Positions 45,925 to 51,098 of a stretch of DNA of 64,000 nt are shown here, piece after piece. The position numbers were made by a program, and so were the translations under genes. The DNA lies in NCBI RefSeq assembly GCF_000969825.1, contig NZ_KQ033919.1:486030-550029 (forward strand), given 5' to 3'. A model generated the notes under the pieces. It was not told where the DNA came from, searched no databases, and worked only from the letters and a program-made list of their open reading frames with translations. The stretch's first letter is position 1. Each line of letters starts with the position of its first letter. The stretch is from Parabacteroides gordonii MS-1 = DSM 23371 (lineage in GTDB: Bacteria > Bacteroidota > Bacteroidia > Bacteroidales > Tannerellaceae).

Positions 45925-46698
45925 TTATTCAATATTCTTGCGGATCTTGGTCAGATACCCTTTCATCGCTTCCGAATCCTTGTCTTTGATAATTTCCTGC
46001 AGGATATTCAATTCTTCCTGTATGCGGGAAATCTGTTTCGGGGTACGCGGGTTGAAGAGTATTTCCGTCAATAGATAATCATCTTCAGACAGCAAACCGC
46101 GGGCAATCTTCATATGGCGTTTGAATGTCGTACCCGGAGCATCCTGATGCTTCATGATGGCAGCAAATACCATTGTTGAAGCGAACGGAATACCTAAAGA
46201 ATAGGCAACCACCTTGTCATGTTCCTCAAATGTATATTCGCGGATATTCAGACGCAGGGCGGAATAGATATCTTTGAAGAATATCTTTCCCAGGTGATCC
46301 CCTTCCGATATGATGATCGTATTCTCTTTTTCCAAGCTACCCAGATTGGCGAATGTCGGGCCGAACATCGGGTGAGTGGAAACATACGGGAAACCACAGG
46401 TTTCGTAAAACTCTTTCAGATGGGTCTTTACGGATGCTATGTCTGAAATGATACAGTACGGCTGCAGGTAAGGCAAAACTGCCTTGAATGCTTCAATCGT
46501 GTAATTCAATGTTACGCAATTGATAACAAGTTCGGGGGCAAACCCTGCAACCTCTTCCGGTTTCTGCAGGCGAAGGGCATTGTAAATGAAACGCATCCGC
46601 TTCGGATCGTTTTCCAATACAGCCACTTCATGGTCAAAACTCAGCAGGTCGGTGAAGAAAGAACCCATCTTTCCGGCACCTAATATTAATATTTTCAT
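45925..46698 (-). CDS. tyrA: Prephenate dehydrogenase
   Basis: NAD(P)-dependent step from prephenate to 4-hydroxyphenylpyruvate in tyrosine synthesis. 257 aa, single-domain form. Rossmann motif LILGAGKMGSFFTDLL, SDIASVK, and STHPMFGP with the catalytic His. Last gene of the pheA operon, but separated from the DAHP synthase gene by 131 bp containing repeat array D. Confidence 0.92.
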   Translation of the reverse strand: MKILILGAGKMGSFFTDLLSFDHEVAVLENDPKRMRFIYNALRLQKPEEVAGFAPELVINCVTLNYTIEAFKAVLPYLQPYCIISDIASVKTHLKEFYETCGFPYVSTHPMFGPTFANLGSLEKENTIIISEGDHLGKIFFKDIYSALRLNIREYTFEEHDKVVAYSLGIPFASTMVFAAIMKHQDAPGTTFKRHMKIARGLLSEDDYLLTEILFNPRTPKQISRIQEELNILQEIIKDKDSEAMKGYLTKIRKNIE

Positions 46699-46731
46699 TG
46701 TCTTATTCTTTTTGTCTATAATTTACGCTAC

Positions 46732-46823
46732 CCGTCAACGGGAGGTGACGGGTAACGTCTGGCCTCGTTGACGACAACCGTCAACGAGGGGTGACGGCTA
46801 CCGTCTCTTACCGCCGATGAAAA
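46732..46823. repeat. 23-bp-period degenerate tandem array D
   Basis: Units start at 46732, 46755, 46778 and 46801, exactly 23 bp apart. Units 1 and 3 share CCGTCAACGRGRGGTGACGG; unit 2 is related in the opposite orientation. A perfect 11-bp inverted repeat (CCTCGTTGACG with CGTCAACGAGG, 46763-46789) spans units 2-3, and ACCCGTCA...TGACGGGT lies in unit 1. The array lies inside the aromatic operon. Confidence 0.85.
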
Positions 46824-46829
46824 CCGCTA

Positions 46830-47897
46830 TTATTCATTCATGATGATCATCTGCTGGCGAACAGATTCTTCATGTATCTCTTTCAATATCTCCTTTACAA
46901 AATCAACATTCAGTTCCATCGTCTGCCCCATATCCGAACGTTTTTCCAGGATTTCGCTGTAACGTGGTGACTGGAGGATGGGCATGTTATGTTCTTTCTT
47001 ATACACACCGATCTCGCGGGAGATGCGCATACGTTTAGCCAACAGTTCGAGCAGTTGTTCGTCGATGCCGTCGATCTGGCGGCGTAGTTCGGCCAGGTTT
47101 TCGGTAGTCTGTGTCTCGTTACGGATAACCAACAGGTTGACAACATAATCGAGTACATCCGGTGTGATCTGCTGTGAAGCGTCGCTCCAGGCACAATCCG
47201 GACAAGGATGCGACTCGATCATCAAACCGTCGAAGCTCAAATCCATCGCCTGCTGTGACAGCGGAGCTATCAGTTCGCGCTTACCACCGATATGGCTGGG
47301 ATCGCAGAAAATCGGCAGGTTTGGCATACGGCGGCGCAGTTCGATAGGGATGTGCCACAACGGTAGGTTACGGTACATCTTCTTGTCGTAAGAGCTGAAA
47401 CCGCGGTGGATGGCACCCAGACGACGGATACCTGCACCATACAGACGTTCGAAAGCACCGATCCATAACTCCAGGTCAGGGTTTACCGGGTTCTTGATCA
47501 GGACAGGTATATCCACGCCTTTCAAAGCGTCTGCAATTTCCTGTACGGCGAACGGGTTGACAGTGGTACGTGCACCGATCCACAGAATATCGATCCCGGC
47601 TTTCAATGCTTCGAATACATGGTCTTTTGTTGCCACTTCGGTAGCTACATACATGCCTGTTTCTTTCTTTACACGTTTCAACCACTGCAAGCCTTCAGCT
47701 CCGATACCTTCGAAGCCACCCGGTTTCGTGCGGGGTTTCCAGATTCCGGCACGGAATATTTTAACGCCTTTGGATGCCAGCTGGGTAGCCGCTTCCATTA
47801 CTTGCTCTTCTGTTTCGGCACTACAAGGGCCTGAGATGATGATAGGACGCTGAGGGTCTACACCGGGTAATAAGATTGATTCTAATTCCATTTCCAT
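46830..47897 (-). CDS. Bifunctional DAHP synthase / chorismate mutase
   Basis: 355 aa. N-terminal DAHP synthase (about 1-255): PIIISGPCSAETEEQV, IFRAGIWKPRTKPGGFEG, WIGARTTVNPFAVQ, VLIKNPVNPDLELW, FCDPSHIGGKRELI and MIESHPCPDCAWSDA. C-terminal chorismate mutase (about 262-355): LRRQIDGIDEQLLELLAKRM. The fusion joins entry to the shikimate pathway with the branch to Phe/Tyr, and the fused mutase domain usually makes the synthase sensitive to prephenate or chorismate. Third gene of the operon. Confidence 0.95.
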   Translation of the reverse strand: MEMELESILLPGVDPQRPIIISGPCSAETEEQVMEAATQLASKGVKIFRAGIWKPRTKPGGFEGIGAEGLQWLKRVKKETGMYVATEVATKDHVFEALKAGIDILWIGARTTVNPFAVQEIADALKGVDIPVLIKNPVNPDLELWIGAFERLYGAGIRRLGAIHRGFSSYDKKMYRNLPLWHIPIELRRRMPNLPIFCDPSHIGGKRELIAPLSQQAMDLSFDGLMIESHPCPDCAWSDASQQITPDVLDYVVNLLVIRNETQTTENLAELRRQIDGIDEQLLELLAKRMRISREIGVYKKEHNMPILQSPRYSEILEKRSDMGQTMELNVDFVKEILKEIHEESVRQQMIIMNE

Positions 47898-47906
47898 GAT
47901 GATATT

Positions 47907-49091
47907 CTATTTTATTATTTTTGTTATTCTGTTTAATGCTTCCTGTAATGCTTCGTTCTTGCAGCAAAGTGAGATACGGATGTAACGTTCGCCGCAGCTT
48001 CCGAAGATAAATCCGGGGGTGATGAATACGTTGGCTTCATACAACACTTTGTTTGCCAGCGCTTCGCTGCCTTCCGCTTCTGCCGGGATCTTTCCCCAGA
48101 GGAACATACCTACCTGGTTTTCGTCGTATTCGCATCCCAGCGTGTGCATGATCTGTACGGCCAGGTCGCGGCGGCTGCGATAGGTACGGTTCATGTTGTC
48201 GTACCATTCTTTCGGCGCTTTCAACGCTTCAACGGCTGCATGCTGCATCGGTTTGAACTGGCCGGAGTCGATGTTGCTCTTTACTTTCAGTATCCATTGG
48301 ACGAACTGTGCGTTCGAGGCCAGCATCGCCATACGCCAACCCGGCATATTGTGCGCCTTACTCATCGAGTTCATTTCGATACAGATATCTTTGGCTCCCG
48401 GAACACTCAGGATGCTTAACGGCTGATCGTTCAGGATGAAACTGTAAGGGTTATCGTTACAGATGATGATACCGTGTTTACGTCCGAAGGCAACCAGCTT
48501 TTCAAAAAGCTCCATGCTGGCGTTCGCGCCGGTCGGCATGTTCGGGTAATTGACCCACATCAGCTTTACGCCGGAGAGATCCGTCTTTTCCAATGCTTCG
48601 AAATCCGGTTGCCATCCCAGCTCTTCTTTTAGTTCGTAGGAGATCAGGTTGGCCTGTACCAGTTTGCTGACAGAGCTATAAGTAGGATAACCGGGATTGG
48701 GAACCAATACGCCATCTCCGGGATTCAGAAATGCTAGCGAGATATGCAAAATTCCTTCCTTGGAACCGATCAGCGGCTGTATCTCTGTCTTCGGATCCAG
48801 TTCGACTCCATACCATGTCTGATACCAGTCGGCGAAACCTTTACGCAGTTCGGGGATACCCACATACGGCTGGTAACCATGCTCATTCGCATTATGTGCA
48901 TGTTCGCACAAGGTCTCGATGGTCTGTTCCGAAGGGGGCAGATCGGGGCTACCTACGCCCAGACTGATCACATTCTTGCCTGCGGCATTCATTTCGGCTA
49001 CCTCTTTCAGTTTCTTTGAGAAGTAGTATTCCTGTACGCTGCCTACACGGTCAGCGGGTGTGATGTTACACACTTTGTTTTCCTTCTGCAT
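47907..49091 (-). CDS. Class I/II pyridoxal-phosphate aminotransferase (aromatic operon)
   Basis: 394 aa fold type I aminotransferase. N-terminal YFSKKLKEVAEMNAAGKNVISLG and GVGSPDLPPSEQ, YQPYVGIPELRKGFADWY, NYPNMPTGANAS, ICNDNPYSFI, and the PLP-lysine motif MNSMSKAHNMPGWRM. Similar to LL-diaminopimelate- and aspartate-type enzymes. Between pheA and DAHP synthase it probably transaminates prephenate or phenyl-/hydroxyphenylpyruvate. Its start overlaps the end of pheA by 26 bp. Confidence 0.9.
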   Translation of the reverse strand: MQKENKVCNITPADRVGSVQEYYFSKKLKEVAEMNAAGKNVISLGVGSPDLPPSEQTIETLCEHAHNANEHGYQPYVGIPELRKGFADWYQTWYGVELDPKTEIQPLIGSKEGILHISLAFLNPGDGVLVPNPGYPTYSSVSKLVQANLISYELKEELGWQPDFEALEKTDLSGVKLMWVNYPNMPTGANASMELFEKLVAFGRKHGIIICNDNPYSFILNDQPLSILSVPGAKDICIEMNSMSKAHNMPGWRMAMLASNAQFVQWILKVKSNIDSGQFKPMQHAAVEALKAPKEWYDNMNRTYRSRRDLAVQIMHTLGCEYDENQVGMFLWGKIPAEAEGSEALANKVLYEANVFITPGFIFGSCGERYIRISLCCKNEALQEALNRITKIIK

Positions 49092-49911
49092 ATTCGCCTA
49101 AAATTTTTAAGTCCTTTGTTAATGGTATGATTGCATCCAATGCCTGTCTGTATCTTGTATAATCAGTAAATGTAAGGTCGATATAGAACAGATATTCCCA
49201 TTCGCGGCCGATGATCGGCAACGATTGTATTTTAGAAAGATTCATGTCATAGAAAGAAAGAATAGAGAGAACTTTGGAGAGACTGCCGGAGGTGTGAGGG
49301 AGAGCGAATACCAGTGAAGATTTGTTGACGTCTGACTTCTCAAGAAGATCTTCAGCTGTCCAGCGGTCTGCTATGGCAAGGAAGCGGGTGAAGTTGCGTT
49401 TGTTGGTTTCTATCCCTTCGGCCAGTATTTCCATCTTGTAGATCTGGGCGGCCAGTTTCCCGCAGATAGCAGCATGTCCTTCGAGCTTATTCTCGGCAAT
49501 CCATCGGGCACTCATCGCGGTATCTTCTTTTTCCACCACTTTGGCATTTGGCAAGGTATCGAGGAAGTCGGTACATTGCATCAGTGCGATGGGGTGGGAG
49601 TTGACTTCCGTGACATCGTGTATCGACGTTCCCGGCAGCGCAACCAACGAATGCGAAATGCGTAGTTTGTATTCGCCGATCACCCGCAGACCGCTTTCGC
49701 GGATCAGTTCATGATTCTGCAGCAAGCTTCCTGCAATGGTATTCTCGATGGCCATCAGTCCTAACAAAGACGGGTCTTTCTTTATGGCTGAAATAACATC
49801 TCTGAATGTATTGCATCCAACAATTTCAATATCTTCACCTTCATAGAAGCTACGGGCGGCGATGTCGTGATACGAACCGGCTATTCCCTGAATTGCTACT
49901 TTCTTTTTCAT
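49066..49911 (-). CDS. pheA: Prephenate dehydratase with ACT domain
   Basis: 281 aa. Converts prephenate to phenylpyruvate. IQGIAGSYHDIAARSF start, MAIENTIAGSLLQN, the substrate motif EVNSHPIALMQC, and KEDTAMSARWIAEN. The C-terminal ACT domain (about 195-275, SGSLSKVLSILSFYDMNLSK then IQSLPIIGREWEYLFYIDL) binds Phe for feedback inhibition. First gene of the operon and placed 20 bp after an attenuator terminator with a Phe/Tyr leader peptide. Confidence 0.96.
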   Translation of the reverse strand: MKKKVAIQGIAGSYHDIAARSFYEGEDIEIVGCNTFRDVISAIKKDPSLLGLMAIENTIAGSLLQNHELIRESGLRVIGEYKLRISHSLVALPGTSIHDVTEVNSHPIALMQCTDFLDTLPNAKVVEKEDTAMSARWIAENKLEGHAAICGKLAAQIYKMEILAEGIETNKRNFTRFLAIADRWTAEDLLEKSDVNKSSLVFALPHTSGSLSKVLSILSFYDMNLSKIQSLPIIGREWEYLFYIDLTFTDYTRYRQALDAIIPLTKDLKILGEYAEGKQSV

Positions 49912-49930: not shown

Positions 49931-49962
49931 AAAAAAAGTCCCACCGAAACCGGCAGGACTTT
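49931..49962 (-). terminator. Attenuator terminator of the pheA operon
   Basis: On the minus strand AGTCCTGCC (49960-49952), loop GGTTTC, GGTGGGACT (49945-49937), followed by seven T. The 9-bp stem contains two G-U pairs. The TCCTGCC of the 5' arm (49958-49952) is perfectly complementary to GGCAGGA in the leader (50016-50010), the antiterminator partner. Confidence 0.88.
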
Positions 49963-49997
49963 ATATTATTTATTGATACATTTCTATCATCAACGCT

Positions 49998-50072
49998 TTA
50001 CATACAAATTCCTGCCTTCACTCTGCTAAAGTAAAAGTAATAAAAGAAATATGTAAAGCTAAATCGATTCAT
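49998..50072 (-). CDS. Phe/Tyr leader peptide of the pheA operon
   Basis: 24-codon frame from ATG 50072 to TAA 49998. Residues 3-16 are RFSFTYFFYYFYFS: six Phe and four Tyr among residues 4-15. The end is RVKAGICM. Codons 19-21 (AAG GCA GGA) carry the GGCAGGA antiterminator arm, so a ribosome reaching the stop masks it (terminator forms), while one stalled on Phe/Tyr codons leaves it free (read-through). Promoter box TACTTTTG lies 28 nt upstream. The peptide itself is not expected to have a function. Confidence 0.9.
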   Translation of the reverse strand: MNRFSFTYFFYYFYFSRVKAGICM

Positions 50073-50099
50073 TTGTTTCGTTTGTTTTTAAATACGCAG

Positions 50100-50107
50100 C
50101 AAAAGTA
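50100..50107 (-). promoter_or_regulatory. -7 promoter box of the pheA operon leader
   Basis: TACTTTTG on the minus strand. A TTTG at 50130-50133 lies 22 bp further upstream as a possible -33. The transcript would start about 20 nt before the leader ATG. Confidence 0.6.
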
Positions 50108-50171: not shown

Positions 50172-51098
50172 TTAGACGACCTTTAATCCGGCCTGTAACG
50201 TCAGCATTTCTTTAGGCACAGACTTTTTGATACTCTCTATCAGCATACCGGCAATGGTATGCCGGATAAAGTCTTTGCGGGTGATCCATACGATTTCGCG
50301 TGCCGGTTTGGGGATGGCGAAAGGACGTACCAGCTTCTTTTGTTCTTCGCTGAGTTGCAGGGTGGCCAGTTCGGGAATAAAAGTGACTCCGTTGCCGCTT
50401 TCAACCATGCGCATGAATGTTTCCAGACTTCCCAAGCGATAGGCGGCCTGGCGTAGTTTCACTTTCTCCATCTGGCAGAAACGCATCAACTGGTCGCGGA
50501 AGCAGTGTCCTTCATCCAGTAGCCAGAGATGTTCGTCGCTGATATCGGCTGTGCGGATCAGCTCTTTTTTGAATACGGGATCATTCTCGGCTACGTAACC
50601 GAAGAATTGTTCGTAATATAATGTATCGCCCTGAAGCTGTGCTTCCGATGGCTGGTTAGCTATGATGGCGGCATCGATCTCACCATTCAATATGGCAGCC
50701 ATTGTGGGAGCCGTTTTCATTTCCAGGATACGGATATCCAGATCCGGATGTTTTTCCGATAGCTGCTGGAAGAAACGGGGAAGCAGGTAAGGGGCAATGG
50801 TCGGCAGGACTGCTAGGCGGAAAGTTCCTTTCAACGATTGTTCCTCTTCATTCACGATATCCTTTATCAGGGAAGCCTGATATAAAACGGTACGTGCCTG
50901 GTCGATCACTTTGCGTCCGGCCGGGGTAGGACAGACGGGTTGCATGTTGCGGTCGAATAATTTGATACCCAGTTCGTCTTCCAGCTTTTGAATCATCATG
51001 CTGAGGGTAGGTTGTGTTACTCTGCAGTGCTCTGCTGCTTTTGCGAAATGGCGATAGGTGTCTACTGCCAGAATGTACTCGAGTTGTTGTATATTCAT
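50172..51098 (-). CDS. oxyR: Hydrogen-peroxide-sensing LysR regulator OxyR
   Basis: 308 aa. N-terminal winged helix-turn-helix (HFAKAAEHCRVTQPTLSMMIQKLE), then the LysR effector domain. Redox cysteines are Cys199 and Cys208 in LLDEGHCFRDQLMRFC, the same spacing and numbering as E. coli OxyR. Activates peroxide defence genes on disulphide formation. It follows the HTCS gene by 6 bp on the same strand and could be read from it, though oxyR usually has its own promoter. Confidence 0.96.
   Translation of the reverse strand: MNIQQLEYILAVDTYRHFAKAAEHCRVTQPTLSMMIQKLEDELGIKLFDRNMQPVCPTPAGRKVIDQARTVLYQASLIKDIVNEEEQSLKGTFRLAVLPTIAPYLLPRFFQQLSEKHPDLDIRILEMKTAPTMAAILNGEIDAAIIANQPSEAQLQGDTLYYEQFFGYVAENDPVFKKELIRTADISDEHLWLLDEGHCFRDQLMRFCQMEKVKLRQAAYRLGSLETFMRMVESGNGVTFIPELATLQLSEEQKKLVRPFAIPKPAREIVWITRKDFIRHTIAGMLIESIKKSVPKEMLTLQAGLKVV

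Follow-up and report, generated by a model that had tools for sequence, protein, structure and literature searches.

A conserved leader before pheA of Parabacteroides gordonii, very probably a ribosome-mediated attenuator responsive to charged tRNA-Phe and tRNA-Tyr

The window analysed here, a stretch of 64,000 nucleotides from Parabacteroides gordonii MS-1 = DSM 23371 (contig NZ_KQ033919.1), contains an operon for the synthesis of Phe and Tyr that is preceded by a short reading frame rich in Phe and Tyr codons and by an intrinsic terminator (Table 1). Domain matches bear out the gene order pheA, aminotransferase, DAHP synthase/chorismate mutase and tyrA given by the initial annotation, the tyrA-like gene being assigned by its Pfam domain and having NCBIfam matches below their cut-offs. 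Among the matches listed, the closest named relative of the window pheA is that of Parabacteroides goldsteinii (99% identical). Homologues of PheA were found in 38 of 38 genomes searched at the level of the genus, 113 of 123 of the family, 80 of 198 of the order and 58 of 197 of the class, with the best 30 pheA loci at most being taken per search, and 80 named pheA loci were kept of at least 584 in the genome contig set. The order pheA, aminotransferase, DAHP synthase/chorismate mutase, tyrA is maintained in all 49 of these 80 named loci that extend over at least 6.8 kb.

Two features of the surrounding sequence are recorded here in their own right. The gap between the DAHP synthase/chorismate mutase gene and tyrA (window 46700-46830) holds a palindrome, CCTCGTTGACG-GTTGT-CGTCAACGAGG, and a second, shorter and related one, both of which lack a T run. 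Directly upstream of the leader locus, on the same strand, lies a LysR-family gene (50172-51098) with the OxyR models as its nearest matches, and a LysR-gene match is also present upstream of pheA in 18 of the 49 long named loci.

Table 1. Genes and leader features of the pheA locus, with window positions
Feature	Position	Strand	Remark
Candidate -33 element TTG	50128-50126	-	putative, by reading
-7 promoter box TACTTTTG	50107-50100	-	Bacteroidota TAnnTTTG type
24-codon leader ORF MNRFSFTYFFYYFYFSRVKAGICM	50072-49998	-	ORF translation
Control codons 4-15	50028-50063	-	6 Phe + 4 Tyr
Region 1, outer part GCTTTACATA	50050-50059	-	pairs with 50004-49995 (covariation)
Region 1, inner part CTTTTACTTT	50028-50037	-	inside control codons
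Partner of inner part AGAGTGAAGG	50015-50024	-	two-base overlap with region 2
Region 2, antiterminator core GGCAGGA	50016-50010	-	pairs with 49958-49952
Partner of outer part TATGTAAAGC	49995-50004	-	spans stop codon
Small hairpin TTGAT...ATCAA	49973-49993	-	between region 2 and terminator
Region 3, terminator 5' arm AAAGTCCTGCC	49952-49962	-
Intrinsic terminator	49931-49962	-	stem 49962-49935, T7 49937-49931
pheA, prephenate dehydratase	49066-49911	-	PF00800
Class I/II aminotransferase	47907-49091	-	PF00155
DAHP synthase fused to chorismate mutase	46830-47897	-	PF00793 + PF01817
tyrA-like prephenate dehydrogenase	45925-46698	-	PF02153, 32.3 bits, cut-off 26.5

The leader, its GGCAGGA motif, the terminator and the promoter box all read on the minus strand. 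The promoter box lies where it had been annotated, and a TAnnTTTG box is common in the homologous regions: of the 103 that are long enough, 95 have it in the 70 nt ahead of the leader ATG, versus 7.4 expected. Translation of the 24-codon frame yields the ten Phe/Tyr residues claimed for positions 4-15 (F4, F6, Y8, F9, F10, Y11, Y12, F13, Y14 and F15), and GGCAGGA, which spans from the last base of codon 19 through codon 21, is indeed a perfect complement of the terminator 5' arm located within leader codons 19-21. The terminator with its run of seven T residues was likewise recognized correctly, but the distance between the end of this run and the pheA ATG (49911) is 19 nt rather than the 20 nt reported. 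By reading, the stretch upstream of the leader start is A-rich and contains no evident Shine-Dalgarno sequence; translation in the phylum Bacteroidota starts largely without Shine-Dalgarno pairing. Folding of the 189-nt leader gives a z-score of -3.74, with only 1 of 200 dinucleotide shuffles folding as well or better.

The leader is widely conserved upstream of pheA, the region that the initial annotation had proposed to align in relatives, and this holds for close as well as distant ones. A reading frame with at least 7 Phe/Tyr within a 14-residue stretch is present in 116 of the 121 upstream regions counted (six short ones were skipped), many of which come from close relatives and are not independent, and the stricter threshold of at least 9 Phe/Tyr retains 110 of the 121. 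On the opposite strand, the two thresholds are reached in 1 and 0 of the 121 regions, respectively, and in dinucleotide shuffles in 5 and 0 of 1210. Six regions (L067, L069, L071, L078, L080 and L083) duplicate another at an offset, and since all six carry the leader, the honest count is 110 of 115. Five regions have no leader by the lower threshold: L048, L054, L063, L120 and L101, whose reading frame meets a run of N. The genomes of L054 and L063 instead have a Phe/Tyr leader before an aminotransferase gene (L187, L186). Named carriers include Parabacteroides, Tannerella forsythia (L134), Candidatus Azobacteroides (L131) and Candidatus Symbiothrix (L137 and L139). The search at the level of the class provided 26 new loci, 23 of them outside Bacteroidales, and 11 of these 23 have a reading frame with at least 6 Phe/Tyr, a count made at a lower threshold, without a shuffled control and irrespective of a terminator. 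Nine of the 23 have neither such a frame nor the shorter one reading YFWFY that precedes pheA at the remaining three (L271, L273 and L283). We note that these YFWFY frames may perhaps be leaders that sense three aromatic amino acids.

The pairing potential of the leader is conserved together with its codons. Of 115 sequences with both leader and terminator, 113 have a segment of at most 190 nt, and removal of those at least 90% alike leaves 79 for alignment; two leader-bearing loci (L050 and L059) were left out by the terminator scan, and two others (L037 and L040) were set aside because the scan had picked their second terminator. Within this alignment, the core of the antiterminator helix 2:3 is paired in 98.7% of cells, with 46 cells changed on both sides compared to 9.6 in shuffles and such changes in five of the seven pairs, whereas sliding the partner by 1-3 columns reduces pairing to 29-50%. 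The complementarity of GGCAGGA and TCCTGCC, for which a check of covariation had been proposed, is thus kept through compensatory changes, with other lineages using AGCGGGA/TCCCGCT, GACAGGAT/ATCCTGTC or GGTCGGG/CCCGACC. The duplex that each leader forms with its own arm is calculated at -17.5 kcal/mol, versus -11.2 with the arms of other lineages and -5.6 with a shuffled region 2. A longer helix 2:3 of ~14 bp, as suggested by duplex folding, was rejected: its distal half shows no covariation beyond shuffles (74.8% versus 73.9% paired, 45 of 500 shuffles being as high), and we therefore claim only the 7-bp core. The terminator helix 3:4 is paired in 99.6% of cells, a value due in part to selection, since rows were chosen for having a terminator, and the small hairpin that separates region 2 from the terminator is paired in 74.6% of cells, with gaps in about a quarter of the rows.

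The initial annotation had described a two-structure design that would need no separate pause hairpin. This reading is not upheld: folding of the window leader predicts a 1:2 hairpin that sequesters region 2, and this hairpin is conserved with compensatory changes. Its inner helix is paired in 91.8% of cells, with 22 cells changed on both sides versus 6.4 in shuffles, and its outer helix in 83.9%, with 73 versus 34.7. For both helices, neither the covariation score nor the number of cells changed on both sides is attained in any of the 500 shuffles, but 38 (inner) and 54 (outer) of the 500 reach the observed count of pairs with two-sided changes. The conserved 1:2 hairpin points to the classical three-helix design, in which region 3 is common to the mutually exclusive helices 2:3 and 3:4 and helix 1:2, as predicted, hides region 2 and overlaps the control codons. 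The locus thus combines what defines an attenuator, namely a codon-enriched leader frame, an intrinsic terminator, a covarying helix 2:3 that excludes it and a helix 1:2 that extends over the control codons. We consider it very probable, from comparative sequence evidence, that the element acts as a ribosome-mediated transcription attenuator and monitors how much charged tRNA-Phe and tRNA-Tyr is available. The mechanism itself is most likely classical and conserved, with mixed codons, rather than new.

The identity of the control codons supports this assignment. Across the 79 leaders, all of the last eight control positions hold F in some leaders and Y in others, such that individual positions are split, for example, into 43 F and 35 Y or 35 F and 39 Y, and the residues up to the last control codon comprise 430 F and 358 Y in total. 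Together with the conserved leader and complementarity, this interchange supports the original proposal of ribosome-mediated attenuation with Phe and Tyr control codons, and the proposed refutation by a lack of conservation of frame or complementarity in close relatives does not apply; together with the constant gene order, it fits the suggestion that dual codons match an operon serving both amino acids. Mixed codons before an operon making both products would be consistent with sensing of both, but they are no proof of it.

Leaders of the same kind stand before other amino-acid operons. The P. gordonii genome has a His-rich leader, MKIRVSHHHHHHYSGQ, with a terminator before hisG (L254) and a Trp-rich leader, MRTFIVNTFWWWRSLLLKRS, with a terminator before trpB (L227). 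In relatives, a His-rich leader precedes 21 of 22 hisG loci, 19 of them with a terminator, and a Trp leader precedes 16 of 20 trpB loci, 12 of them with a terminator, both counts being without a shuffled control and the latter leaving out five lower-scoring trpB-like loci. The Rfam family Bacteroid-trp (RF01692) matches the trpB leader of P. gordonii with 74.3 bits (gathering score 49), and of nine trp loci scanned, six have a leader that it matches. In addition, one locus (L182; G238:C1047:11400-13600, minus strand) has an Asn-rich leader, MKSMMKLMNNNQNNSSNNNLLRIRKVIVHTT, with a terminator before asnA; a scan of 24 of the 25 asnA loci of relatives found this arrangement at none of the 24, and it is thus not general.

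These observations bear on the possibility that the aromatic peptide itself arrests the ribosome on free Phe or Tyr and thereby drives the same helix switch. Such nascent-chain arrest would suit a Phe/Tyr-rich peptide of fairly constant length and would use the same conserved geometry. However, F and Y interchange, the residues ahead of the run vary, the C-terminus lies either directly behind the Phe/Tyr run or at least seven residues further on, and the Trp and His leaders of these genomes each use the amino acid of the operon that they precede, which makes arrest by the peptide a highly improbable explanation.

The position of region 2 relative to the control codons is well maintained. Measured from the first base of the last Phe/Tyr codon, region 2 starts at a mean of 14.3 nt (sd 1.3, n=79; range 10-18 nt, with 14 nt in 35 leaders), which is the least variable of the three distances measured, as the sd is 2.7 from the ATG and 9.8 to the stop. 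In 37 of the 79 leaders the stop codon follows the region 2 start by 16 nt, and in 18 it precedes this start by 3-4 nt. Counted from the first base of the P-site codon, the leading edge of the ribosome lies ~15 nt downstream. With this footprint size, region 2 would only just be exposed once the last Phe codon has entered the A site, and a ribosome terminating at either of the two common stop positions, +16 or -3/-4, would lie over region 2; in the 11 leaders with a stop 20-28 nt past the region 2 start, a ribosome at the stop would cover it poorly. When the window RNA up to region 3 is folded with the footprint blocked, P(2:3) is 1 if the ribosome is stalled at codon 8, 11 or 15 and 0 if it is at the stop, and for the latter the full-length RNA gives P(3:4)=1. 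A geometry in which a stalled ribosome frees region 2 and a terminating one covers it is thus obtained for the window by folding and for most of the 79 leaders by the general footprint size.

This geometry also weighs against the idea of a riboswitch, or of an attenuator bound by a protein or tRNA, in which the reading frame would be incidental. Such a regulator would likewise present itself as a folded 5' region and a terminator ahead of biosynthetic genes, yet the distance from the last Phe/Tyr codon to region 2 varies least of the three measured, reading of the 79 aligned leaders reveals no conserved core beyond the coding and switching helices, and no Rfam 15 family, T-box and riboswitches included, reaches its gathering score within the window. 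We regard this alternative as slightly less probable still than arrest by the peptide. Least credible of all is that the frame encodes a functional small protein and that the terminator merely lowers operon expression. Strong conservation of the peptide in Tannerellaceae would favour this reading, but across the 79 leaders the residues outside the Phe/Tyr run vary more, the stop takes up different positions in different classes without a matching move of region 2, and region 2 covaries with the terminator arm.

For the attenuator, we suggest the following sequence of events. RNA polymerase would start at the TAnnTTTG promoter, with a ribosome following on the leader. When charged tRNA-Phe or tRNA-Tyr is scarce, the ribosome would stall on a control codon and break helix 1:2, leaving region 2 free, ~2 nt past its front edge even when the last Phe codon occupies the A site. 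Helix 2:3 could then form ahead of the synthesis of region 4, permitting read-through into the pheA, aminotransferase, DAHP synthase/chorismate mutase and tyrA genes. When both charged tRNAs are plentiful, the ribosome would reach the stop and cover region 2, such that terminator 3:4 forms; likewise, with no translating ribosome, 1:2 would form, followed by terminator 3:4. The folding calculations set two requirements on this scheme. At equilibrium, the full-length RNA prefers the terminator even if the ribosome is stalled, which calls for a kinetic switch that acts during RNA synthesis. Without a ribosome, the full-length RNA folds as terminator plus 1:2, and in the nascent RNA at equilibrium helix 2:3 is favoured (P 0.97), and default termination thus depends on 1:2 forming first.

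The spread of the element was assessed with a covariance model, R1, searched at E <= 0.001 against genomes with a completeness of at least 85. The model scores 138.9 bits on the window copy, which is among its training sequences, and 24.3 bits on the next window matches. It finds 117 of 393 Bacteroidales genomes and 69 of 204 genera; since R1 also matches Trp and Asn-rich leaders, the 117 genomes are not a count of Phe/Tyr leaders alone. Inspection of twenty matched places, mostly second, weak or displaced matches, revealed 14 Phe/Tyr leaders (one, L193, with a GTG start), four Trp-codon leaders, one Asn-rich leader (L182) and, by reading, one place with none of these (L185). The Trp leaders lie before a PLP enzyme read as trpB (L176 and L183) and before anthranilate synthase component I (L180 and, by reading, L181). 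In some genomes with pheA located elsewhere, displaced Phe/Tyr leaders precede an aminotransferase gene (L174, L178, L186 and L187), a prephenate dehydrogenase gene (L175) or a DAHP synthase gene (L190).

The window locus has a single attenuator unit. By comparison, two Phe/Tyr leaders in series, each with its own terminator, are present in 11 of 152 upstream regions (146 without the six repeats), comprising 7 of the 144 obtained via pheA alone (138 without the repeats; L037, L038, L040, L041, L055, L278 and L286) and 4 of the 8 fetched for model matches (L179, L188, L189 and L191). By their lineage labels, the tandem loci belong to eight families. In every one of the 22 units, no more than 5 of 100 shuffles equal the best duplex that the sequence following the Phe/Tyr run forms with the terminator arm of that unit. 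This duplex starts 9-15 nt past the first base of the last Phe/Tyr codon in 20 units; the R1 model itself detects both units in four genomes (G210, G311, G338 and G227). On balance, we favour the view that Bacteroidia possess an old, undescribed family of dual Phe/Tyr attenuators that stand before pheA, or before other aromatic genes if the operon is split, with two complete units for the same signal in eight families. If so, tandem units would multiply two read-through probabilities and produce a steeper switch, and ribosome and RNA polymerase would be coupled over the Phe/Tyr leaders.

The attenuator would probably explain the control of the Phe/Tyr operon in gut Bacteroidales, and the R1 covariance model is usable for annotation. 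Taken together, the Phe/Tyr, Bacteroid-trp and His leaders argue that attenuation is common in the phylum and, in turn, that transcription and translation are coupled over such leaders. The tandem loci, having two units for one signal, offer a natural test of how serial attenuators shape the response. What makes the element of interest is how widely it occurs in Bacteroidia, its mixed Phe and Tyr codons and its tandem occurrence in relatives.

Vitreschak and co-workers (2004) are said to have mentioned attenuators in Bacteroidetes/Chlorobi. The Trp leader RNA Bacteroid-trp (RF01692) of Bacteroidetes appears in Table 1 of a 2010 paper (PMC2864571), and other papers report strong indications that leader peptides attenuate amino-acid operons of Flavobacterium psychrophilum (PMC9723704), short reading frames reminiscent of leader peptides in B. 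thetaiotaomicron (PMC7366714) and counts of leader genes in Bacteroidetes among other phyla (PMC4833913), the main text of the last not containing the words phenylalanine and tyrosine. For the his leader, a pause hairpin and an extra hairpin are described in PMC1183508. The parts searched of the openly licensed PMC literature revealed no leader with Phe or with Phe/Tyr codons from Bacteroidota. Neither the window element, which Phe_leader (RF01859) matches with 21.9 bits (gathering score 55) and which RF01692 does not match at E up to 10, nor the Phe/Tyr leaders of 27 other loci scanned have an Rfam match at gathering score. The remark that such attenuation is little described in Bacteroidales therefore stands for the Phe/Tyr leaders as far as Rfam is concerned, but not for the phylum at large, and the precedents of Bacteroid-trp and the Flavobacterium clues (PMC2864571 and PMC9723704) lower the novelty accordingly.

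Among known systems, Bacteroid-trp shares with the Phe/Tyr leader the phylum and a leader peptide with codons of the operon's amino acid followed by a terminator, but differs in having Trp codons and preceding the trp operon. The pheL leader of E. coli, with Phe codons before pheA and the 1:2, 2:3 and 3:4 logic, corresponds to the window element in codons, target gene and three-helix logic. In contrast to pheL, the window leader mixes in Tyr codons, its operon also makes Tyr, and its start follows an A-rich stretch with no evident Shine-Dalgarno sequence. Codons for more than one end product are found in the ilvGMEDA and thr attenuators of E. coli, which resemble the window element in their multivalent control codons, although for amino acids other than Phe and Tyr. 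For the tandem loci of relatives, the Salmonella mgtCBR leader provides a parallel, in that PMC3641672 describes two leader reading frames in series on one transcript; however, these two frames respond to different signals, ATP and proline, whereas the tandem loci have two Phe/Tyr leaders.
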